A DNA stretch of 64,000 nucleotides, taken from assembly GCF_001552255.1 (NCBI RefSeq), contig NZ_BCQV01000004.1, positions 62,001 through 126,000 of the forward strand, in the 5' to 3' direction. This document shows, in pieces, positions 13,980 to 24,374 of the stretch (its first letter is position 1; every line of letters begins with the position of its first letter). The stretch comes from Alicyclobacillus shizuokensis NBRC 103103. Lineage in GTDB: Bacteria; Bacillota; Bacilli; Alicyclobacillales; Alicyclobacillaceae. A program made the position numbers and the translations under genes. The notes under the pieces are model-generated. The model had not been told where the DNA came from and searched no databases. It worked only from the letters and a program-made list of their open reading frames with translations.

Positions 13980-14004
13980 GAAAGCGGCCTGAGAAAGCGG
14001 CCTG
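13980..14004. repeat. 13-bp tandem duplication
   Basis: GAAAGCGGCCTGA is immediately followed by GAAAGCGGCCTGC. It lies in the divergent intergenic region between the GNAT gene and the HTH pair, about 70 bases before the -10 element of the latter. Function unknown. Confidence 0.6.
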
Positions 14005-14075
14005 CGCAGTTCACCATGAGTCTCGAACTGTTCTACGATCGTGCAAATCTTTCCCACAAGTCGCGTTGAATCCGG

Positions 14076-14081
14076 TATAAT
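14076..14081 (+). promoter_or_regulatory. TATAAT -10 element of the double-XRE operon
   Basis: A perfect TATAAT lies 35 bases before the first XRE start in a locally AT-richer stretch. The -35 is poor (TTCCCA at 19-base spacing), which would suit a regulated promoter. Confidence 0.5.
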
Positions 14082-14115
14082 TTCCACAATAGAGAAACAT
14101 CGTGGGGGGATTGAC

Positions 14116-14322
14116 ATGCTGGACATCGGAACCCGGGTCAAGAAACTGCGCACCGAACGGCAGCTGACCGTGCGTCAACTGGCGGCGCGGGCGGGTGTGT
14201 CGGTGAGCTACGTGTACGCGGTGGAATCGGGCAAGCGGGGGAGCAACCTGAGCAAGCTGGAGCGCATCGCCCAGGCGCTGGACGTATCCCTCACCGCACT
14301 GTGGGATGAGGGACGGGATTGA
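14116..14322 (+). CDS. small XRE-type DNA-binding protein
   Basis: This 68-residue protein is essentially one helix-turn-helix domain: IGTRVKKLRTERQLTVRQLAARAGVSVSYVYAVESGKRGSNLSKLERIAQALDVSLTALW. It resembles SinR and phage-type repressors in size and has no other domain. ATG 14116 is preceded at five bases by GGGGGGA. Its stop overlaps the next regulator's TTG start by four bases (TTGA), so both are made from one message. It may be a repressor of its own operon; partner and target are unknown. Confidence 0.8.
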   Translation: MLDIGTRVKKLRTERQLTVRQLAARAGVSVSYVYAVESGKRGSNLSKLERIAQALDVSLTALWDEGRD

Positions 14323-14912
14323 ACGTGGAGCCGTGGACGCTGTTGCGCCAGCTGCGCCGGCTGGCCGGTCTGACACAGGAACAGGCGGCCGCTGGGCTGC
14401 TCACGACAGGAGAACTGAGTCAGATTGAGAATGGCCGGGTCCTCCCTGGTCGACGCACGGTTTGCGCCTTGTGTGCCCGCTACGGTGCGGACGCGGACGA
14501 GGTGCTGAGCGGTTACGCGCCCCTGCGCCAACGGGATCGACTGCGCAATGAGATGTACAAGGCAGCCATGCGGGCGCGGGAGCCCGGCGACCTGTTGGAT
14601 CCTGGGCCTGCCCGGGGCAGGCTCAGCCGCTTCGAACGGCTGGTGTACGCTGCGCTGGCGGCGGCGTTGGCCGGACGGACGGTCGCAGCCGAGCACCTGC
14701 TGACGATGGCCTGGCAGGCCAGCCTTGACGGGGCCGGGTTGACCCGCCGGGGAGCGGATCGAATCTTGGCTGTGGAAGCGCGGGTCCACTTTTTGGTGGC
14801 CCTCGCCTGCGGCCGTCTGTCGGCGGCATTGGAGTGGCAGCAGAAGATGTGCGCCCGGGCACGGCGGCTGGGGCCGACTGCACCCGTGCAGCCAGAGCCC
14901 AAGCGGCTGTGA
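14319..14912 (+). CDS. XRE regulator with helical C-terminal domain
   Basis: The 197-residue product has a second, different helix-turn-helix at residues about 6-65 (LLRQLRRLAGLTQEQAAAGLLTTGELSQIENGRVLPGRRTVCALCARYG). A helical repeat-like region of about 130 residues follows (RFERLVYAALAAALAGRTVAAEHLLTMAWQASL...), resembling the TPR part of Rgg/PlcR-type or DUF-type XRE proteins but too short for a full set. The start TTG 14319 overlaps the upstream stop; GTG 14325 is an alternative with better spacing from GAGGGA. Two XRE genes overlapping head-to-tail is unusual. Confidence 0.7.
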   Translation: MNVEPWTLLRQLRRLAGLTQEQAAAGLLTTGELSQIENGRVLPGRRTVCALCARYGADADEVLSGYAPLRQRDRLRNEMYKAAMRAREPGDLLDPGPARGRLSRFERLVYAALAAALAGRTVAAEHLLTMAWQASLDGAGLTRRGADRILAVEARVHFLVALACGRLSAALEWQQKMCARARRLGPTAPVQPEPKRL

Positions 14913-14962
14913 TACAATCGGATCGACCAATATGGAGGCGGAGCGCGAAGGGGGAGCCCAGG

Positions 14963-15148
14963 ATGTCGACGGAAGAAGAGATCGGCTACAGGGACGCCAT
15001 GCGGCAGGTGCAGAAAAGCCTGGAGCGCCGTCACAAGGCAATCTCCGAGGAACTGGAGGTGGCGGACGAAGCGCGGCGGATGGAGTTGAAGGCGCGCCTG
15101 GCCGAGGTGCGGCACCTGATGCAGGTTATCGAGTCGCTGCACCGCTGA
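14963..15148 (+). CDS. 61-residue coiled-coil protein, unknown
   Basis: This is a very charged, helix-forming protein: QVQKSLERRHKAISEELEVADEARRMELKARLAEVRHLMQVIESLH has heptad-like spacing of hydrophobic residues and should form a coiled coil. There is no signal peptide or cysteine. AAGGGGGA at 14948-14955 supports ATG 14963; readings starting further upstream are not supported. It follows the XRE pair by 50 bases and may belong to the same operon. The Spo0E-like phosphatases have similar size, but the SQELD-type motif is absent, so no function is assigned. Confidence 0.6.
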   Translation: MSTEEEIGYRDAMRQVQKSLERRHKAISEELEVADEARRMELKARLAEVRHLMQVIESLHR

Positions 15149-15265
15149 TTTCGCGGGCCGCTCGACACCCCGGGCCGGGCCGTGCGGGCGCGAGATGACA
15201 GATTGGGACAGCCGTCGGACAGGGGCCTGTTGTCCGCAGTCCACTGGGGAGAGGATGCAGTCGTG

Positions 15266-16579
15266 ATGTTCAATGAAGCCATGGAGACGATAACCCGGCC
15301 GGAGCTGGAGCGAATTCAGCTGGAACGGTTGAAGCAAACGCTCCACCGGGTCTACGAACGCGTGCCTTTGTACCGGGAGCGGTTTGACGAGGCGGGCGTG
15401 AAGCCGGAGGACCTGCGGCGGTTGTCCGATTTGAGCCGTTTTCCCTTTACATACAAGCGCGACCTGCGGGAGACGTATCCCTTTGGCATGTTTGCCGTCC
15501 CGCGCGAGCAGGTGGCGCGGCTGCACGCGTCGTCGGGAACCAAGGGGAAGCCGACGGTGGTCGGCTACACGAAGCGGGACCTGGACGTGTGGGCCGAGGT
15601 CGTGGCCCGCTCCATCGCCTGTGCCGGCGGACGGCCGGGCGACGTTCTGCACAACGCGTACGGCTACGGCCTGTTCACCGGCGGCCTCGGTCTGCATGGC
15701 GGGGCCGAGCGCCTGGGAATGACGGTGGTCCCCGCGTCCGGGGGCCTGACCGAGCGGCAGGTGGAGCTGCTGATTGACTTTGCCGCCGACGGTCTCAGCT
15801 GCACGCCGTCGTACGCCTTGCATATGGCCGAAGTGATGCAGCGCAAAGGCATCGACAAGTCGGCCCTGTCCCTGCGCTACGGTATCTTTGGCGCCGAGCC
15901 GTGGAGCGAAGGGATGCGCCGGCAGGTCGAGGAGGCGCTGGGCATCGACGCGCTCGACATCTACGGCCTGAGCGAGGTGATGGGGCCGGGCGTCGCCATG
16001 GAGTGCCGCGAGGAGAAGAACGGCCTGCATGTTTGGGAGGATCACTTCCTGGTCGAGGTGCTCCATCCGGTCACGCACGAGCCGGTGCCGGACGGCGAGT
16101 TGGGCGAGCTGACGTTCACCTCGCTCAGCAAAGAAGCTTTCCCGATTGTTCGCTACCGCACCGGCGACCTGGCGTCCATCATCGCGGAACCTTGCAGCTG
16201 CGGCCGCACCCACCGGCGCATGACGCGCATCAAGGGCCGCGTCGACGACATGCTCATCATTCGCGGGGTCAACGTCTTCCCGCAGGAGGTGGAGGCGGAG
16301 CTGATGGAGGTCGAGGAACTGGCGCCGCACTACCAGATTGTCCTGCGCCGCGACGGAGCGCTCGATGTCATGGAGGTGCACGTGGAACTGCGGCCGCAGA
16401 CGGCGCCCGTCATCTTAGACGGCGAGGAGCGCCTGGCCGCCTTGGCCGGTCGGATTGTCGGGCGGCTGCGCCAGCGCACCGGGCTGACGGCGGCGGTCAC
16501 CATCCATCAGCCGGGTGAATTGCCGCGCAGCGAAGGCAAGGCGGTGCGCGTCATTGATGAACGGCGGCTCCGCGGCTGA
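15266..16579 (+). CDS. paaK: phenylacetate-CoA ligase
   Basis: PaaK activates phenylacetate (or a similar aryl acid) to its CoA thioester with ATP, the first step of aerobic phenylacetate breakdown in the cytosol. The 437-residue length is typical. Visible family features are HASSGTKGKPTVVGYT (phosphate-binding loop), NAYGYGLFTGGLGLHGGAERLGMTVVP, IYGLSEVMGPGVAMEC and the C-terminal RIKGRVDDMLIIRGVNVFPQEVE motif with SEGKAVRV near the end (usual catalytic-Lys context). GGGGAGAGG lies before both GTG 15263 and ATG 15266; ATG is chosen. It heads a partly decayed catabolic cluster; no PaaABCDE epoxidase is in this window. Confidence 0.9.
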   Translation: MFNEAMETITRPELERIQLERLKQTLHRVYERVPLYRERFDEAGVKPEDLRRLSDLSRFPFTYKRDLRETYPFGMFAVPREQVARLHASSGTKGKPTVVGYTKRDLDVWAEVVARSIACAGGRPGDVLHNAYGYGLFTGGLGLHGGAERLGMTVVPASGGLTERQVELLIDFAADGLSCTPSYALHMAEVMQRKGIDKSALSLRYGIFGAEPWSEGMRRQVEEALGIDALDIYGLSEVMGPGVAMECREEKNGLHVWEDHFLVEVLHPVTHEPVPDGELGELTFTSLSKEAFPIVRYRTGDLASIIAEPCSCGRTHRRMTRIKGRVDDMLIIRGVNVFPQEVEAELMEVEELAPHYQIVLRRDGALDVMEVHVELRPQTAPVILDGEERLAALAGRIVGRLRQRTGLTAAVTIHQPGELPRSEGKAVRVIDERRLRG

Positions 16580-16639
16580 CGCGTGGTTTGCGGCCGTGGG
16601 TTTGCAATCGACAACGCGGTGTTGGGAGGAGAGTCAGCG

Positions 16640-17092
16640 GTGAAGCGAGGGTTCGGCGTGGGGGTGCGGGCCGTGGTGGAGGACGTGGTTGCGGGCGACA
16701 TGCGCGCCCGCTTTGGTCCGCACGTGATTCACGAGGTGTACGGCACCGCCGCCATGGTCTATCACATGGAATGGGCCGCCCGCCGGGTCATCCTGCCGTA
16801 CCTGGAACCGGAGGAGGAGGGCATCGGCGCGGGCGTTGCCGTGCGTCACCTGCGGCCGGCTCCAGTGGGCGCCGCCATCCGGGCGGAGGCGGTGTGCACG
16901 GAGGCGGTCGGAGGCAAGGTGGTGTGTGCCGTTCGCGTGTGGCACGGAGAAACCCTCCTCGGCGACGGGACGGTGGAGCAGCGGATTGTGCCGCGCACGC
17001 TCCTGTGCGAGCGGTACCCGGACTGCTGGCCGGCGGAGCCGAGCGCGGACGGGCGCAGGCTGGCGCGCCTGGCCGGGGACCGGCGCGCGTGA
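16640..17092 (+). CDS. hot-dog fold thioesterase, FlK/PaaI-like
   Basis: This 150-residue protein probably hydrolyses an acyl-CoA, perhaps clearing dead-end CoA esters of the pathway. The arrangement HEVYGTAAMVYHMEWAARRVILPYLEPEEEGIGAGVAVRHLRPAPVGAAIRAEAVC is the central helix and following strands of the hot-dog fold; the Thr/Glu/His trio in positions like those of fluoroacetyl-CoA thioesterase (T...E...H) can be picked out (GTAAMVYHME, VRHLRPAPVG), but assignment of catalytic residues is inferred. GTG 16640 follows GGGAGGAGAG by about eight bases. It starts 60 bases after paaK in the same direction. Confidence 0.75.
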   Translation: MKRGFGVGVRAVVEDVVAGDMRARFGPHVIHEVYGTAAMVYHMEWAARRVILPYLEPEEEGIGAGVAVRHLRPAPVGAAIRAEAVCTEAVGGKVVCAVRVWHGETLLGDGTVEQRIVPRTLLCERYPDCWPAEPSADGRRLARLAGDRRA

Positions 17093-17138
17093 GCGTCTGC
17101 GGCGCGGGCGGTGCTCCGAAGGCGGCCCAGGGAGGGAT

Positions 17139-17253
17139 ATGGTGAAGATGATTGCACTGTAGCGCCGTCCCGCGGACGTGGAGGCCTTTGCAAGCGTTTG
17201 CGGGCGATTTTGTGCAGTTCTATTTTGCCGATGTGGAGAGCGAGGTGCTGTGA
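17139..17253 (+). pseudogene. EthD-family reductase remnant
   Basis: A good ribosome site (GGGAGGG) precedes ATG 17139, which reads MVKMIAL then TAG, then RRPADVEAF in the same frame. That matches the start of EthD proteins (MVKLIALYRRPADVEAF...) with the Tyr codon turned into TAG. After the junction at about 17181-17195 the frame moves by one and reads LQAFAGDFVQFYFADVESEVL up to TGA 17251-17253, resembling the EthD C-terminus. About 70 residues in the middle are therefore deleted. EthD proteins commonly sit beside paaG-like genes in Bacilli. The following gene's GTG touches this TGA. Confidence 0.55.
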
Positions 17254-18036
17254 GTGTACGAAACGATCCGCTACCAGGTGGAGGACGGTGTGGCGCTGGT
17301 GACGCTCAACCGCCCGCAGGTGATGAACGCCGTCAATCAGCAGATGGGGAAAGAATTATACGACGCCTTCAAGCGGGTGGATGCCGACGCCTCGGTGCGG
17401 GCCCTTGTCCTGACCGGAGAGGGGCGCGGCTTTTGCAGCGGACAGGACCTGTCGGAAGGGCAGTCGGTGGAGCCCGGTGCGTCGCTTGGCGATACCGTGC
17501 GCGAGCGATACAACCTGCTGATTGCGCGCCTGCACGGGCTGTCGGTGCCGACCATCGCCGCCGTCAGCGGGGCCGCCGCCGGCGCCGGGTTTTCCTTGGC
17601 CCTCGCCTGTGATCTGCGCTTCGCGGCGGTCAACGCGAAGTTCACCCTGGCCTTCAACAAGATTGGCCTCGTGCCCGATTCCGGTGCCAGCTACTTCCTG
17701 CCACGCTTGGTCGGCGTCGGCAAGGCGCTCGAATTGGCCTGGACGGGCGACGTACTGTCCGCAGAGACGGCGCGGGCGCTGGGGATTGTGAATCACGTGT
17801 ACGAACCGGATCAACTGCTGCAGGAGACGTTGGCGTTCGCCCGTCAGTTGGCGCAGGGGCCGACGTTCGCGTACCGGCTGACCAAGCAAGCCCTGTTCGC
17901 CAACGCCACCGCCAGCCTGGCGGACGCGCTGGAGGTCGAAGCGCAGCTGCAGGACGCGGCGGGGCGCAGTGAGGATTTCCGCGAAGGGGTGAGCGCGTTC
18001 CTGGAAAAGCGCCGGCCGCAGTACCGCGGCCGCTAG
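17254..18036 (+). CDS. paaG: enoyl-CoA hydratase/isomerase, PaaG-like
   Basis: This crotonase-fold enzyme of 260 residues probably acts on the ring-1,2-epoxide or an enoyl-CoA of phenylacetate breakdown. VRALVLTGEGRGFCSGQDLSEGQ (oxyanion-hole strand with GRGFCSGQDL) and PTIAAVSGAAAGAGFSLALACDLRFAAVNAKFTLAFNKIGLVPDSGASYFLPRLVG, including the isomerase-type PDSG rather than the hydratase PGxG, favour PaaG (2-(1,2-epoxyphenyl)acetyl-CoA isomerase). GTG 17254 is preceded by GAGAGCGAGG and directly abuts the EthD remnant stop. The gene appears intact although genes on both sides are decayed. Confidence 0.8.
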   Translation: MYETIRYQVEDGVALVTLNRPQVMNAVNQQMGKELYDAFKRVDADASVRALVLTGEGRGFCSGQDLSEGQSVEPGASLGDTVRERYNLLIARLHGLSVPTIAAVSGAAAGAGFSLALACDLRFAAVNAKFTLAFNKIGLVPDSGASYFLPRLVGVGKALELAWTGDVLSAETARALGIVNHVYEPDQLLQETLAFARQLAQGPTFAYRLTKQALFANATASLADALEVEAQLQDAAGRSEDFREGVSAFLEKRRPQYRGR

Positions 18037-18326
18037 ACGGCGCCCGTAGGCTGGTGCGAGGGCGGCCGGAGAGGAATTTGCGTCGGGGCTGTCGAATGTA
18101 TCGTGAGCGGGGCCGGAAAATCCGCCTGGAATCGGCGGTTGTGCGGCCAACAGACAGAGAGGACCGGAGACCGTCCGGGGTAGGGGTCAACGTGAACGAG
18201 GCGGGGCAGCTTGCCGGCTGCCTCGCGGTCGGTCTTGCACAGGCTGGGACCGCGGACAACCGAGAAGGCGGGCCTTGACGTATCGGCGTTGGAAGGTAGG
18301 TCCGGGGAGGGGCTTGCTACCTGCTC

Positions 18327-18340
18327 TGAAAGCGCTTGCA
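18327..18340. promoter_or_regulatory. catabolite-responsive-element-like sequence
   Basis: TGAAAGCGCTTGCA fits the CcpA consensus TGNAANCGNWNNCA exactly. It lies at the front of the thiolase remnant, where it may also simply be old coding sequence (Leu-Lys-Ala-Leu-Ala), so its regulatory meaning is uncertain. Confidence 0.3.
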
Positions 18341-18375
18341 ATAATCCGACGGGTAGGGAGCGTCGCCTCCGCGCG

Positions 18376-18670
18376 TCAGCCTGATGTTCAGGCGGCTCGC
18401 GCCTCGGCGGTGGCCGGGGTGAATCCGGCCCACATGGGCCTGGGCCCGGTGCCCGACACAAAAAGGCGTTGGCCAGGGCGCGAATCTCCCCGGACGACCT
18501 GGACGTGGTGAAACTGAACGAGGCATTCGCCGCCCAGTTGCTGGCCTGTATGCAGTGTGGAAGAACCTGGGCGCGCTAAATCTCCCTTGGCGCGCGGGCA
18601 GCGGGCGAGAGAACGGCGAGCGACCGCTTGTTACCTTGCGAATTGGCGTCGGCTTGTTCATCATATCAAC
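18376..18670 (+). pseudogene. thiolase (acetyl-CoA acyltransferase) remnant
   Basis: Two frames together recall a thiolase C-terminal half. ASAVAGVNPAHMGLGPVPDTK (to about 18463) shifts frame after a run of five A into ARISPDDLDVVKLNEAFAAQLLACMQ (to about 18555), which is the conserved GxGPxPAxKxAL...DDxDxxExNEAFAAQ region. The Cys/His segment (GGAIALGHPxGASG) is missing. A further piece, PLVTLRIGVGLFI near 18625-18665, resembles the final thiolase motif GLATLCIGVGQGI, but with the catalytic Cys replaced by Arg. LAQAGTADNREGG near 18233-18275 may be an N-terminal fragment. At least one frameshift and large deletions make it non-functional. Confidence 0.7.
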
Positions 18671-18770
18671 ATGTGCCATCGGTCCCAGGAGTGGGTGTAC
18701 GCGGGCGGACCGGTGGGTACGGGTGCGGACTCACCGGGTTTGACCGCCCGCCTATGGAGGAGAGTAGAAC

Positions 18771-18981
18771 GTGGGCATTTTTGCGGAAATTCAACCGTAC
18801 GGTCACTAGCAGGTGATCTGCTCTCGGCATCAGTCGCTTCGTCACTGCCGACCTTGTTTGGCGTGATGCAGGGAATTCGCGCCACGGCGTGGAATTCTGA
18901 GGAAGCACGGGACTGAGCGGCCGCACGTTTGCGGTTCAGGGGCTGGGCAAGGTCCACGGCCCCAAGACCATCTACTCCTGA
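18771..18981 (+). pseudogene. leucine/branched-chain amino acid dehydrogenase remnant
   Basis: GGAGGAGAG at 18756-18764 serves GTG 18771, which reads VGIFAEIQPYGH then TAG, then QVICS; intact enzymes read ...IFxEIQxYGHEQVxFC, so a Glu codon became TAG. After an internal deletion FGVMQGIRATAWNSEEARD (18857-18915) matches the helix before the NAD domain. A frame change then gives LSGRTFAVQGLGKV (about 18912-18955), the glycine-rich NAD loop, before TGA 18979-18981. About three quarters of the roughly 365-residue protein is gone. It lies 56 bases before the intact E1-alpha gene, the place a bcd gene would hold in a keto-acid dehydrogenase operon. Confidence 0.75.
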
Positions 18982-19036
18982 CGCCGACGCAAGCGCCCGA
19001 GGGGGATACCCCTGCCTCGGACAACCTCGAGAAGGG

Positions 19037-20101
19037 ATGATGGACGTGTCGTACGTGATTCATCCGGCCCCAGCTGCCGACGAGCCGAAGCCAAGCGGGA
19101 TGGACGACGCCCTCTTGGTGCACATGTACGAGCAAATGGTGTGGGTACGTCAGTTTGACCGCCGCCTGGTGGCGCTCCAGCGCAGCGGGCGCATCGGCAC
19201 CTATCCGCCGGTGGAAGGCCACGAGGCGTGCCAGGTGGCCAGCGCTTTGGCGCTGCGCCAGCAGGACTGGGTGTTCCCCACCTACCGGGACACCGGGGCG
19301 ATGCTCGTACGCGGGGTGCCGATGGAACGGCTGCTCCTGTATTGGAACGGCCGGGCCGAGGGACTGTACATCCCGGAGGGGGTGAAGGTGTTCCCGATTG
19401 CCGTGCCGATTGCCACACAGCTCCCGCACGCAGCGGGGGTGGCCTGGGCGGCCCGCCTGCGCGGGTTGGACGAGGTGGCGTTGGCGTTCTTCGGAGACGG
19501 CGCCAGTTCGGAAGGCGACTTCCACGAGGCGCTCAACTTCGCCGGGGTGTTTCGATTGCCGATCATCTTTTTCTGCGAAAACAACCAATATGCCATCAGC
19601 GTGCCATATGCCCGCCAGACGGCGAGCGAGACGATTGCGCAAAAGGCTCAGGCATACGGTCTCGTCGGCAAGCGGGTGGACGGCAGTGACGCCATCGCCG
19701 TCTACCAGGCGGTGCGGGAGGCGCTGGCAGAGGCCCGGCAGGGCGGCGGCGCGACGTTGATTGAGGCGCTGACCTATCGCTATGGACCGCATACAACCTC
19801 GGACGACCCGTCCAAGTACCGCCCGAAAGAGGAGGCCGAGGCCTGGCGCGAGCGCGATCCGCTGCTCCGCCACCGCCGCCGCCTGGAAGGCTGGGGCCTA
19901 TGGGACGAAGAGCGGCAGCAGGCGTTGGAGCGGCGGGTGAACGAGGGTATTGTGGCGGCCATCCGAGCCATGGAGGCGGCACCGCCTCCGAACCCGGACG
20001 ACCTGTTTGACCACGTCTATGCCGAACTTCCTCCGCGGTTGGTGCGCCAGCGCGATGAGCTGCGGGCGCGGTTGGCGCAACGAGAGGGGGCGGAGCGATG
20101 A
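19037..20101 (+). CDS. pdhA: 2-oxoacid dehydrogenase E1 component, alpha subunit (PdhA-like)
   Basis: With the beta subunit it decarboxylates a 2-oxoacid using thiamine diphosphate and passes the acyl group to the E2 lipoyl arm. The 354 residues contain the TPP motif GDGASSEGDFHEALNFAGVFRLPIIFFCENN and the E1-alpha hallmark GRIGTYPPVEGHEACQVASALALRQQDWVFPTYRD. The stretch LYIPEGVKVFPIAVPIATQLPHAAGVAWAARLRG is closer to Bacillus PdhA than to BkdAA. The leucine-dehydrogenase remnant just upstream hints at branched-chain keto acids instead, so substrate is open. ATG 19037 (or 19040) follows GAAGGG. It overlaps the beta gene by four bases (ATGA). Confidence 0.85.
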   Translation: MMDVSYVIHPAPAADEPKPSGMDDALLVHMYEQMVWVRQFDRRLVALQRSGRIGTYPPVEGHEACQVASALALRQQDWVFPTYRDTGAMLVRGVPMERLLLYWNGRAEGLYIPEGVKVFPIAVPIATQLPHAAGVAWAARLRGLDEVALAFFGDGASSEGDFHEALNFAGVFRLPIIFFCENNQYAISVPYARQTASETIAQKAQAYGLVGKRVDGSDAIAVYQAVREALAEARQGGGATLIEALTYRYGPHTTSDDPSKYRPKEEAEAWRERDPLLRHRRRLEGWGLWDEERQQALERRVNEGIVAAIRAMEAAPPPNPDDLFDHVYAELPPRLVRQRDELRARLAQREGAER

Positions 20102-21084
20102 GCGGCCGGGAACTGACTCTGATACAGGCTATCAACGCGGGCCTGCGTGAAGCCATGCGGCGCGACGAGCGGGTCATGTTGCTGGGCGAGGACATCGGCA
20201 AGAACGGGGGAGTCTTTCGTGCCACCGAAGGGCTCCTCGAGGAATTCGGCGAGGACCGAGTGGTCGACACGCCGCTGGCGGAGTCGGGGATTTTGGGCAC
20301 CTCGCTGGGCCTGGCCGCCAACGGCATGCGGCCGGTGCCGGAGATTCAGTTCATGGCCTTCATCTACCCGGGATTTGAGCAGGTGGTCTCACACATCGCC
20401 CGCATCCGCATGCGCTCGCGTGGCCGCTACACGGCGCCGCTGGTGGTGCGCGTGCCGTACGGGGGCCGCAACCGGGCGCCGGAGCTGCATTCGGACAGTA
20501 CCGAGACGTTTTTTGCGCACACCCCCGGGTTGGTGGTGGTCAGCCCCTCGCGGCCGTACGATGGCAAGGGGTTGCTGCTGTCGGCCATTGAGTCGGAAGA
20601 CCCGGTTATCTTCCTCGAGCCGATGCGCCTCTACCGCGCTTACCGGGAGGAGGTGCCGGACGACTACTACACCGTTCCCCTCGGCCGGGCCGAAGTCGTC
20701 CGAGCTGGCCACGACGTGACGCTCATCAGCTGGGGAAGCACCATGCGCGACGCCCTCAAGGCGGCGGAGCAGGCGGAGCAGGAGCATGGATGGAGCGTCG
20801 AAGTCATTGATCTGCGCACTCTTTCGCCGTGGGACGAGGAGACGGTGTTTGCCTCGGTCATCCGCACCGGCCGGGCCGTCATCGCCCACGAAGCGTTTGG
20901 CCACTTGGGGCTTGGAGCGGAGTTGGCGGCGCGCATCGGCGAAGAGTGCATCCTCGACCTGGAAGCGCCGGTGGCGCGGGTGGCCAGCTACGACGTGCCA
21001 GCCCCGTTGTTTCAATTGGAGGACTGGTACGCGCCGGACGCCGGGCGTATCGTTGAAGGCATTCACAAGGTCATGACGTTTTGA
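20098..21084 (+). CDS. pdhB: 2-oxoacid dehydrogenase E1 component, beta subunit (PdhB-like)
   Basis: The beta subunit completes the E1 heterotetramer. The 328 residues match the family: MLLGEDIGKNGGVFRATEGLLEEFGEDRVVDTPLAESGILGTSLGLAANGMRPVPEIQFMAFIYPGFEQ is the N-terminal TPP-contacting part. VVRVPYGG and ELHSDSTETFFAHTPGLVVVSPSRPYDGKGLLLSAI form the middle, and EVIDLRTLSPWDEETV leads to the C-terminal transketolase domain. The start codon overlaps the alpha stop as ATGA, and the E2 gene begins 14 bases downstream, so all three are one operon. Confidence 0.9.
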   Translation: MSGRELTLIQAINAGLREAMRRDERVMLLGEDIGKNGGVFRATEGLLEEFGEDRVVDTPLAESGILGTSLGLAANGMRPVPEIQFMAFIYPGFEQVVSHIARIRMRSRGRYTAPLVVRVPYGGRNRAPELHSDSTETFFAHTPGLVVVSPSRPYDGKGLLLSAIESEDPVIFLEPMRLYRAYREEVPDDYYTVPLGRAEVVRAGHDVTLISWGSTMRDALKAAEQAEQEHGWSVEVIDLRTLSPWDEETVFASVIRTGRAVIAHEAFGHLGLGAELAARIGEECILDLEAPVARVASYDVPAPLFQLEDWYAPDAGRIVEGIHKVMTF

Positions 21085-21098
21085 AAGGGGGTTGACGC

Positions 21099-22727
21099 AT
21101 GGCGGTCGAGTTTCGCTTGCCCGACGTGGGGGAAGGCATCCACGAGGCGGAGATTGTGCGCTGGCTGGTGCACGAGGGAGACCGCGTGGAGGAGTTTGAC
21201 CCGATGGTAGAGGTGCAGACGGACAAAGCGATTGTCGAGTTGCCGGCGCCCGCATCCGGGGTGATCACGCACATCCACGCACCCACTGGCAGCATCGCCC
21301 ACGTCGGCGACGTGCTGGTCGAGATTGAGCCGGAGAGTGTGATTGGCGATCCGGTCGTCGTCCGCGCCCCAGATCCGTCCCCGTTGGCTGCGGCGCGAGG
21401 CGGTTTGTCCGGCCCGGCGCCTGCCGATGCGGCCGGAGCGGACAAAGGCCGGCAGCGCGAGCACAGGGCGGTCGACGACGGTGTGCGGACGGTCGAGACC
21501 ACCCCGTCGCAGCGGCGGCAGGGCCACGCCGCCGGACACAATCTGGACTCCGCGGCCGCAGGCCGCGCCGACACGGCGGGTGGCTCAGCGGGCGGCCCGG
21601 AGGCGGGTGCCCGGCGTCCCAAGGCGACGCCCGGTGTCCGCCACTTTGCACGCCAGCACGGGGTCTCCCTGTGGGACGTAAAAGGCACCGGCCCGGGCGG
21701 GCGCATCCTCAAGTCGGATGTCGAGCGGTATCTCCAGGAGCGTACAGCGCCGACTACCTCCGGCCCGGCCAAGAGCATGAGTGAACATGGGACATCTTTG
21801 CTCTGGTCGCTCGCCCAGCGACCGGTTCGCGGCGAGCGCGACTTGCGTCAGGGCGGCTATCCCACGCCGGTCCCGCGGTCCGCGCGACACGGGTTTGCGG
21901 TGGAAGACGGGCCTTACAGCCCTTCCCGGCCCGCTCGCGCGGATTCTTCCCCCGCAGGCGAGGGGGACGATGCGGTGCGGCGGCCCCTCGGTGCCGCTTC
22001 CCGCGCCGCCACTGGTGATGCGCGGACGCCGACGCGGGTGCCGTTCCGTGGCATCCGCCGGGCCACGGCTGAACACGTCAAGCGATCCGTCTTCACGGCC
22101 CCGCACGTGACGGCCTTTGACGAATGCGACGCCACTGCGCTGGTGGCGCTGCGGCAGCGTTGGAACGAGCGCCTGGAGTCGGAGGGCCGGCGCATCAGTT
22201 ACCTTCCGTTTATCGTCAAGGCGGTGGTGTCTGCGCTGCGCGCCTTCCCGTACTTCAACGCGAGACTCGACGAAGAGGCGGAGGAGATTTTGCTGCTGCC
22301 TGAGTACCACATCGGCATCGCCGTCGACACGCCCGACGGTTTGTTTGTCCCGGTGGTCCGGGACGCCGACCAATTGACGTTGCGCGAGATCGGCGAGGAG
22401 ATCTACCGTCTCTCCACCGGTGCGAGGAACCGGACCCTGACGCCGCAGGACCTGCGCGGGAGCACGTTCACCATCACCAACATGGGGCCGATTGGCGGCC
22501 TGTTTGCCACGCCGATTCTCAATTATCCAGAGGTGGGCATCCTCGGCATCCACCAGATTCAAAAGAAACCGGTGGTTATCGAGGACGAGATCCGGATTCG
22601 TCAGGTGATGACCGTCACCCTGTCCTTCGACCACCGCGTCATTGACGGGGCCATGTCGGTGCGTTTCCTGAACCATCTGAAGCGGTTGATTGAACACCCT
22701 GAGGAACTGATGCTCGAACTGCGATAA
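21099..22727 (+). CDS. pdhC: 2-oxoacid dehydrogenase E2, dihydrolipoamide acyltransferase
   Basis: E2 forms the core of the complex and moves the acyl group from lipoyl-lysine to CoA. In order: one lipoyl domain (residues 1-80, lipoyl Lys43 in EVQTDKAIVELPAP), a 95-residue charged linker, the E1/E3-binding domain (about 177-215, ATPGVRHFARQHGVSLWDVKGTGPGGRILKSDV), a second linker of nearly 100 residues, and the catalytic domain (about 308-542) with DHRVIDG (His512, Asp516). Total length 542 exceeds the usual 410-440 for single-lipoyl E2, all in the linkers. No lipoamide dehydrogenase gene follows, so E3 must come from elsewhere. Confidence 0.9.
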   Translation: MAVEFRLPDVGEGIHEAEIVRWLVHEGDRVEEFDPMVEVQTDKAIVELPAPASGVITHIHAPTGSIAHVGDVLVEIEPESVIGDPVVVRAPDPSPLAAARGGLSGPAPADAAGADKGRQREHRAVDDGVRTVETTPSQRRQGHAAGHNLDSAAAGRADTAGGSAGGPEAGARRPKATPGVRHFARQHGVSLWDVKGTGPGGRILKSDVERYLQERTAPTTSGPAKSMSEHGTSLLWSLAQRPVRGERDLRQGGYPTPVPRSARHGFAVEDGPYSPSRPARADSSPAGEGDDAVRRPLGAASRAATGDARTPTRVPFRGIRRATAEHVKRSVFTAPHVTAFDECDATALVALRQRWNERLESEGRRISYLPFIVKAVVSALRAFPYFNARLDEEAEEILLLPEYHIGIAVDTPDGLFVPVVRDADQLTLREIGEEIYRLSTGARNRTLTPQDLRGSTFTITNMGPIGGLFATPILNYPEVGILGIHQIQKKPVVIEDEIRIRQVMTVTLSFDHRVIDGAMSVRFLNHLKRLIEHPEELMLELR

Positions 22728-22736
22728 GTTGTGCGG

Positions 22737-22766
22737 GCGGGCCGCGCCGGTTGCCGGGCGGCCCGC
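22737..22766 (+). terminator. GC-rich hairpin after the E2 gene
   Basis: GCGGGCCGC (22737-22745) pairs perfectly with GCGGCCCGC (22758-22766), with an inner GCCGG/CCGG-like loop. There is no T-tract, so it may be a weak or Rho-assisted stop, or an mRNA-stabilising stem, ten bases after the operon's last stop codon. Confidence 0.35.
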
Positions 22767-22871
22767 TGGCGCGCCCGCGGGATGCGGCGTTTCCCTGGGG
22801 GCTGGGCGGTGCCGGCAGCGTGTGCTACCATAGACGGGAAATGGATTCAACACTGTAAAGGGTGAAAGTGC

Positions 22872-23171
22872 ATGCCCATCGATAGGATTCGCGATCCGAT
22901 GGTGACCCGTCTGTTTGAAGCGGTCCTGACCCTGCAGTCGGTCGAGGAGTGCTACCGATTTTTCGACGACCTGTGCACCATTGGCGAGATCAGGTCGTTG
23001 GCGCAGCGCCTGGAAGTGGCGCGCATGCTCCAGGCTGGTCAAACGTACCACCAGATCGAAACGGAGACGGGCGCCAGCACGGCCACTATCAGCCGTGTGA
23101 AGCGCTGTTTGAACTACGGATCGGATGGATATACGCTGGTGCTCGGGCGTCTCAAGGAAGCCGGCGGGTGA
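22872..23171 (+). CDS. YerC/YecD family TrpR-related regulator
   Basis: This 99-residue helical protein has the TrpR-like fold: EECYRFFDDLCTIGEIRSLAQRLEVARMLQAGQTYHQIETETGASTATISRVKRCLNYGSDGY, with the helix-turn-helix at about residues 58-80. YerC-type proteins are common in Firmicutes and lack the Trp-binding residues of TrpR; their targets are not well known. AAAGGGTGAAAG precedes ATG 22872, and TGCTACCAT near 22821 is an extended -10-like element. It is a single gene, convergent with the antiporter gene. Confidence 0.85.
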   Translation: MPIDRIRDPMVTRLFEAVLTLQSVEECYRFFDDLCTIGEIRSLAQRLEVARMLQAGQTYHQIETETGASTATISRVKRCLNYGSDGYTLVLGRLKEAGG

Positions 23172-23204
23172 CGCGGCAGCGCCCCCTGGAACGCTGGCGT
23201 GGAT

Positions 23205-24374
23205 TTATCCCAGGAGGCTCAAAAACGCCACCGGCGACACGATACAAGTGATGACCGCGACGAGGATGACCGATTGCCCCACGACCTCGGGCAGAAGCCC
23301 CAGTTTCACCCCAATTTCGGCCGCGGCGATAATCAGGCTCAGGCGGGCGGAGAGCAAAAATCCACCCGCTGCGGCCGCCCGCCGGCCGAAGCTGCGGCGC
23401 AGTTGCCAGGCCGGCGCCAGCTTGACCACAAACGCGGCGGCCAGCAGCGCCAGCACTCCTGTCCAAGAAGCCGACTGATAAAAGCGGACGAAGTCAAACT
23501 GTAGGCCGACCGACAGAAAGAATACGGGGATGAGCAAGCCGTAGCCGATGCCGTGGCTGTACTCCTTGATGCGCTGCTTGTGGGCAAACGGCAGCGCGGA
23601 GACCAGCATGCCGACGAGGAAGCTGCCCAGAATCGGTTCTGAACCGGTGAATTCGGCGACCGCGCAAAAGCCGGCCAGCAGTGCCACCACCGCCCGCATG
23701 CGCGCCTGGGCGTCGCCGGCCAGTCGGCGCAGCGCTGGCACCCGCTGCCCCCAGGCAAGAGCCCGGTAGAGAATAAACGCCAACGGGAAGACGGAGAGCG
23801 TGAGCAAAAAGTCGTCCAGCTGACCGGAGGAGTGAACGCTGACGAACAGCGAGAGCAAGAACATCGTGGCCACGTCCGCAATCAGGGCGCACAGCAGCAG
23901 GGTCTGACCGTAGAGGGCCAAGAGTTGCCTTGACTCCTCCAGCACCGGCAGGATGATGCCCATGGACGTGGTCGCCAAGAGCAGGGTCAACATCCACGGG
24001 TGAGCGCCGGGAAACGTCAATCGGGTCAGGGCCAAGGCCGCCCCGAGGCTGACGACGAGCGACGTGCAGAAGAGGGAGATGGCCAGAAACAGCGGATTCG
24101 TCGGCTGCCCCTTCCACAGGTGCGGTTTGAGCAAGGTCATGTCCACTTCCAGGCCGGACAGGTACATTAAAAACAGCATCCCGAGCTCACCCAGTTGTTG
24201 TATCCACGCAGCCTCCTCCGGGCCGACACGGACCAGGTGGCCCGCCAACAGCATCCCAAAGCCGAGGTACCCCAGCGCCGCCGGAATGCGCAGCCACGGC
24301 AGGCGGCCGAGCAGTGTGCTGAACACAAACGACGCGCACAGGATGAGCAAGAAGAAGCGGAGCGTATCTGTCAC
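23205..24374 (-). CDS. CPA2-type cation:proton antiporter
   Basis: This 389-residue protein has about 12 helices in the fold of KefB/GerN/NapA. It probably exchanges Na+ or K+ for H+ and so affects cytoplasmic pH. Markers are ALGYLGFGMLLAGHLV in helix 2, GELGMLFLMYLSGLEVDMTLL in the extracellular-to-helix-3 segment and EFTGSEPILGSFLVGMLVSALPF in helix 7. No cytosolic RCK/TrkA domain is attached. Start GTG 24374 is supported by GGAGGGGA six bases upstream on the minus strand. Confidence 0.85.
   Translation of the reverse strand: MTDTLRFFLLILCASFVFSTLLGRLPWLRIPAALGYLGFGMLLAGHLVRVGPEEAAWIQQLGELGMLFLMYLSGLEVDMTLLKPHLWKGQPTNPLFLAISLFCTSLVVSLGAALALTRLTFPGAHPWMLTLLLATTSMGIILPVLEESRQLLALYGQTLLLCALIADVATMFLLSLFVSVHSSGQLDDFLLTLSVFPLAFILYRALAWGQRVPALRRLAGDAQARMRAVVALLAGFCAVAEFTGSEPILGSFLVGMLVSALPFAHKQRIKEYSHGIGYGLLIPVFFLSVGLQFDFVRFYQSASWTGVLALLAAAFVVKLAPAWQLRRSFGRRAAAAGGFLLSARLSLIIAAAEIGVKLGLLPEVVGQSVILVAVITCIVSPVAFLSLLG

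Follow-up and report, generated by a model that had tools for sequence, protein, structure and literature searches.

A dead phenylalanine dehydrogenase (PheDH)-like gene stands in a phenylacetyl-CoA operon whose 2-oxoacid dehydrogenase complex has been kept; this is the safest statement of what we found at positions 18771-18967 of the window, i.e., the 64,000-nucleotide stretch of the Alicyclobacillus shizuokensis NBRC 103103 genome that was analyzed. Judged from sequence and gene context, and with a probability of about 0.75, the remnant represents a pseudogene of a PheDH-like enzyme that formerly catalyzed the first step of a route, encoded in the operon, from Phe through phenylpyruvate and phenylacetyl-CoA to the Paa pathway. 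The pseudogene itself is ordinary and its context mildly interesting; the losses that surround it form a pattern suggestive of a rewired aromatic and branched-chain metabolism.

The remnant consists of two pieces, together about 190 of the 1071 nt (~18%) of a Glu/Leu/Phe/Val-dehydrogenase (ELFV) gene. In the three frames of 18681-19060 that were read, a GTG start at 18771, preceded by a GGAGG-type sequence, is followed by VGIFAEIQPYGH and then by a TAG stop at 18807-18809. Downstream of this stop, FGVMQGIRATAW is found in a second frame and LSGRTFAVQGLGKV in yet another. These peptides are fragments of one gene. The syntenic place in Alicyclobacillus herbarius DSM 13609 (G001) holds an intact gene of 356 codons that begins VGIFEEMAKYGHEQVIF and includes TALGVMQGIRATAWKLWGSTGLAGRTFAIQGLGKVG, and its protein matches PF02812 and PF00208. 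When the remnant was compared with intact orthologues by DNA alignment, the 5' piece (18771-18833, + strand; codons 1-21) had 74.6% nucleotide identity to positions 1-63 of the A. herbarius gene (E 3.7e-8). The middle piece (18834-18967, + strand; codons ~146-187) carries a -1 frameshift and a TGA, and its positions 18838-18966 are 80.8% identical to the same gene over 130 nt (E 4.8e-30). The match is far beyond chance. Approximately 370 nt are absent between the two pieces, and nothing is left of the gene past codon ~187. The G+C content of the window stretches read is 59-64%, and no Rfam family was found in 14000-24000. An earlier note on this DNA had described the remnant, its start, frames, and peptides in the same way, and both the frames and the alignment bear it out.

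The sister genome G002 retains the middle piece only, the 5' piece being gone. It agrees with the window in the loss of one base (AATT in place of AAATT), in the TGA, and in the junction of the 3' deletion, which leads into the start of the E1 alpha gene; the stretch that contains this junction and a short E1 alpha leader (18968-19036, + strand) is conserved there. Because these lesions are common to both, the dehydrogenase was dead before the two lineages split. The TAG at 18807 was seen in the window only. The lesions shared with G002 cannot stem from sequencing or assembly error, which the earlier note had already considered unlikely. The pseudogene combines disrupting lesions found in an independent genome with homology to an intact syntenic ELFV member (E 5e-30 and 4e-8 to the A. 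herbarius gene).

The lost enzyme had been taken for a leucine dehydrogenase that fed branched-chain keto acids to the complex, and this is where we depart from that proposal. Intact orthologues lie directly upstream of the orthologous E1 alpha gene in five genomes (G001, G004, G006, G019, and G024). These proteins are 75-80% alike but only ~52% identical to canonical leucine dehydrogenases (Bcd), with which they have the superfamily in common. The remnant matches this operon paralog (E 5e-30), not bcd; neither piece matches the bcd of the window genome (G000) or of G001 significantly in DNA comparison. The pocket residues of Bacillus badius PheDH are Phe86, Gly123, Val144, and Leu306 (PMC8543943). 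In B. badius numbering, which we anchored on motifs from PMC8543943 and in which the D125-N276 spacing differs by 4, Gly123, Val144, and Leu306 are present in all five orthologues, whereas Ala, Thr, and Val/Leu occupy these diagnostic positions in the bcd proteins. Three of the four PheDH pocket residues are thus present, Leu306 alone being weak evidence, as Leu is also found there in several bcd proteins. Val309 and the catalytic Lys/Lys/Asp/Asn are likewise the same as in the PheDHs of B. badius and Thermoactinomyces intermedius, enzymes from which the dead window copy differs in what is left of it. At position 86, all five orthologues have Asn, a residue seen in neither PheDH nor the bcd proteins, in place of the Phe of B. 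badius PheDH, and PheDH specificity is therefore not certain. PheDH-like is the best reading of these orthologues, whose substrate may instead be Tyr or span a wider range.

The shared superfamily and the closest solved structures, which are leucine dehydrogenases, speak for a lost leucine dehydrogenase. The structural likeness is tempered because the solved entries that were found consist of Rhodococcus PheDH and leucine dehydrogenases and include no Bacillus-type PheDH. The NCBIfam models do not tell Leu from Phe dehydrogenases, and all of these proteins match Trp_DH_ScyB below its cut-off. The missing bcd match of the scrap, the pocket residues, and the operon context, which are mostly of the PheDH kind, argue the other way. 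Furthermore, an intact bcd is found as a separate gene on contig 14 of the window genome (L010, 9060-10160), which answers the earlier question of whether another copy exists. The proposed comparison with relatives did reveal intact dehydrogenases at this locus, in A. herbarius and four other genomes, but these are PheDH-like rather than bcd. The remnant is thus, to judge by its matches and by the pockets of its orthologues, not that of a leucine dehydrogenase, and we regard the opposite reading as very improbable. Two more ELFV paralogs were observed in G009 (loci L083 and L084); their pocket positions (Thr/Ser, Thr/Ala, and Asp) are unlike those of Leu or Phe dehydrogenases.

Among relatives, the order of the operon is paaK, a FlK-type thioesterase gene (in some), EthD, PaaG-like, PaaH-like, thiolase (in some), PheDH-like, E1 alpha, E1 beta, and E2. 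The PaaH-like 3-hydroxyacyl-CoA dehydrogenase gene is present in the operon outside the window genus only, and the PheDH-like gene is present at five of the 11 loci. In addition, G017 has a related PheDH-like gene beside paaABCD and paaK. Since the operon of relatives joins a PheDH-like gene, E1/E2, and paa genes, a route from Phe through phenylpyruvate to phenylacetyl-CoA is likely. In the window, the intact members, all on the + strand, are a PaaK-type phenylacetate-CoA ligase (15182-16579; TIGR02155, E 7e-189, 628 bits, slightly below the cut-off of 646; dN/dS 0.07), a FlK/hotdog-family acyl-CoA thioesterase (16583-17092; PF22636, E 1e-29), and a PaaG-like crotonase (17254-18036; TIGR02280 PaaG, E 2e-82, 277 bits, below the cut-off of 345; dN/dS 0.05), together with the complex itself. 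The ATG of E1 alpha at 19037 lies 56 bases past 18981, so that an intact E1/E2 does follow the degraded Leu/Phe/Val-type dehydrogenase closely, as had been noted. The complex comprises E1 alpha (19037-20101; TIGR03181 above cut-off; 96 and 86% amino acid identity to G002 and G001, respectively; dN/dS 0.06), E1 beta (20098-21084; dN/dS 0.05), and E2 acyltransferase (21099-22727; lipoyl, E3-binding, and catalytic domains, PF00364, PF02817, and PF00198; dN/dS 0.16). These dN/dS values were computed between the window genome and G002, the two genomes that share the dehydrogenase loss; at 0.05-0.16, E1 alpha, E1 beta, E2, PaaK, and PaaG are still under purifying selection.

The decay of the operon goes beyond the dehydrogenase. 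At 17139-17253 (+ strand), only a scrap remains of an EthD-family gene that encodes 110 aa in G001 and 105 aa in G002; it lacks ~195 bp and is interrupted by an in-frame stop. A 3-oxoadipyl-CoA-type (PaaJ-like) thiolase gene (402 aa in G001) is reduced to scraps at 18402-18575 (+ strand) by deletions of ~917 and ~178 bp. Both genes are intact in G002, and their loss in the window lineage is later than that of the dehydrogenase. A second PaaJ-type thiolase, 68% identical to the operon thiolase, is encoded on contig 13 of the window genome (L108:8903-10147, - strand) and at that similarity is absent from G001 and G002; its presence may explain why the operon thiolase could go. This gene lies near gentisate-dioxygenase-like and fumarylpyruvate-hydrolase-like genes, both named by eye only. 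A plasmid search returned only distant, generically named homologues.

One alternative is that a redundant gene decayed neutrally, with phenylpyruvate supplied by aminotransferases and the role of the complex unchanged. Two genomes (G008 and G021) lack an adjacent dehydrogenase and keep the rest of the operon as well as an E1 alpha gene close to bcd, and because they keep the operon without one, the adjacent dehydrogenase was never obligatory. We put this explanation at a little under even odds, as it explains neither why the thiolase and EthD genes subsequently disappeared from the window genome nor a further deletion in the window genome and G002, which concerns the bkd complex beside bcd.

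Downstream of bcd, A. herbarius has a dihydrolipoamide-dehydrogenase (lpd)-like gene (named by eye), E1 alpha, E1 beta, E2, lipA, and lipB. In the window genome and G002, the lpd-like gene, E1 alpha, E1 beta, and most of E2 are deleted between bcd and lipA, and bcd is intact and constrained. What follows bcd in both is an ORF of 88 aa that corresponds to the E2 lipoyl domain only, and then lipA and lipB. Possibly this shortened E2 persists as a lipoyl protein in its own right; the ORF (L010:8574-8840, - strand, on contig 14 of the window genome; L100:8682-8948, - strand, in G002) is of equal length in the two genomes, with a dN/dS of 0.20. The window complex is not linked to bcd or lpd, the bcd-linked complex being this separate and deleted one, and such linkage is only indirect evidence of function. 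There are three E1 alpha genes in the window genome: that of the window and two that are not linked to bcd and match pyruvate-dehydrogenase models. The other genomes with the operon have a second E1 alpha close to bcd. Thus, ferredoxin-type 2-oxoacid oxidoreductases (PF01558; two loci in the window genome) aside, the window E1/E2 is the only candidate left for a complex of the bkd/aryl type.

These observations make it conceivable that the window E1/E2 took over the branched-chain 2-oxoacid dehydrogenase role, such that a bcd/lpd-bkd module and a PheDH/E1/E2 module merged, with leucine dehydrogenase coming from the first and the complex from the second. In the two genomes that carry the PheDH scrap, lpd, E1 alpha, E1 beta, and most of E2 are likewise missing beside a constrained bcd, and the two remaining E1 alpha genes of the window genome are the pyruvate-dehydrogenase-type matches without linkage to bcd. 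However, this is one co-occurrence in one lineage, the constraint on PaaK and PaaG argues for an aryl role, and the ferredoxin-type oxidoreductases could cover branched-chain acids. We therefore hold this merger as a tentative possibility, somewhat short of an even chance. The earlier suggestion that the complex had changed its substrate or source of keto acids survives in this altered form and in part, with the deletion of the bkd complex as indirect support.

The fate of phenylacetyl-CoA bears on a further reading. Intact PaaA, PaaC, and PaaD genes are located on contig 5 of the window genome, and a dedicated PaaH is absent from all three same-genus genomes. Across the 12 genomes searched, no model of PaaZ or of alternative oxepin-CoA hydrolases reached its cut-off, and the ring-hydrolysis step therefore could not be placed. 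On contig 6 of A. herbarius (L106:3646-9309, - strand), a crotonase accompanies another PaaA/PaaC/PaaD-like set, which is divergent (~30% identical); extra PaaA-type matches occur in G015 and G024 and not in the window genome or G002. Omega-cycloheptane fatty acids have been reported in A. herbarius, A. kakegawensis, and A. shizuokensis (PMC5023266), and omega-cycloheptyl fatty acids are believed to originate in a paa-pathway shunt (PMC7497051). A catabolic Phe/phenylacetate operon might have been pared down to a biosynthetic feeder that supplies phenylacetyl-CoA for the seven-membered ring starter of these lipids. In that case, neither the deamination of Phe nor the tail end of beta-oxidation (PaaH and thiolase) would be of any use, and both would decay; the rival branched-chain complex would be lost, and PaaK, PaaG, and E1/E2 would be kept. 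The missing PaaH fits, as does a window genome that has lost PheDH and the operon thiolase yet retains PaaABCD, PaaG, PaaK, and E1/E2. Nevertheless, beta-oxidation may continue with the contig 13 thiolase, A. herbarius itself keeps both PheDH and thiolase, and no oxepin-CoA hydrolase reached a family cut-off, all of which makes such a conversion rather unlikely in our judgment.

Returning to the PheDH-like route that we favor, the ancestral operon enzyme would have converted Phe to phenylpyruvate, the E1/E2 complex would have turned phenylpyruvate into phenylacetyl-CoA, and PaaABC and PaaG would have carried out ring epoxidation and isomerization. The dehydrogenase may have become dispensable because phenylpyruvate is available by transamination or from prephenate. 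The surviving E1/E2 presumably still makes phenylacetyl-CoA and may also take branched-chain 2-oxoacids derived from the surviving leucine dehydrogenase. Retention of the complex could accordingly reflect phenylacetyl-CoA formation, a branched-chain take-over, or supply of the omega-cycloheptyl ring; as these readings are not mutually exclusive, our confidences in them do not sum to one. A similar step has been proposed for phenylglycine biosynthesis in Streptomyces pristinaespiralis, where the pyruvate-dehydrogenase-like PglB/C would turn phenylpyruvate into phenylacetyl-CoA (PMC7089894). Here, by contrast, E1 alpha, E1 beta, and E2 sit with PaaK and PaaG in an operon of Bacilli, and gene context points to a putative role in phenylpyruvate conversion. 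Compared with the Paa catabolic pathway, the operon of relatives shares PaaK, PaaG-, PaaH-, and PaaJ-like genes and EthD and adds PheDH and the E1/E2 complex; in the window genome it is partly dismantled, with PaaABCD encoded elsewhere.

The relatives suggest that Alicyclobacillaceae possess an operon in which the phenylacetyl-CoA pathway is coupled with a dedicated 2-oxoacid dehydrogenase complex and a PheDH-like enzyme. The reciprocal losses in the window genome, bcd without bkd and E1/E2 without its dehydrogenase, provide a testable case of complex replacement. Should phenylacetyl-CoA be its product, the window complex would become a candidate enzyme for an early stage in the formation of omega-cycloheptyl fatty acids.
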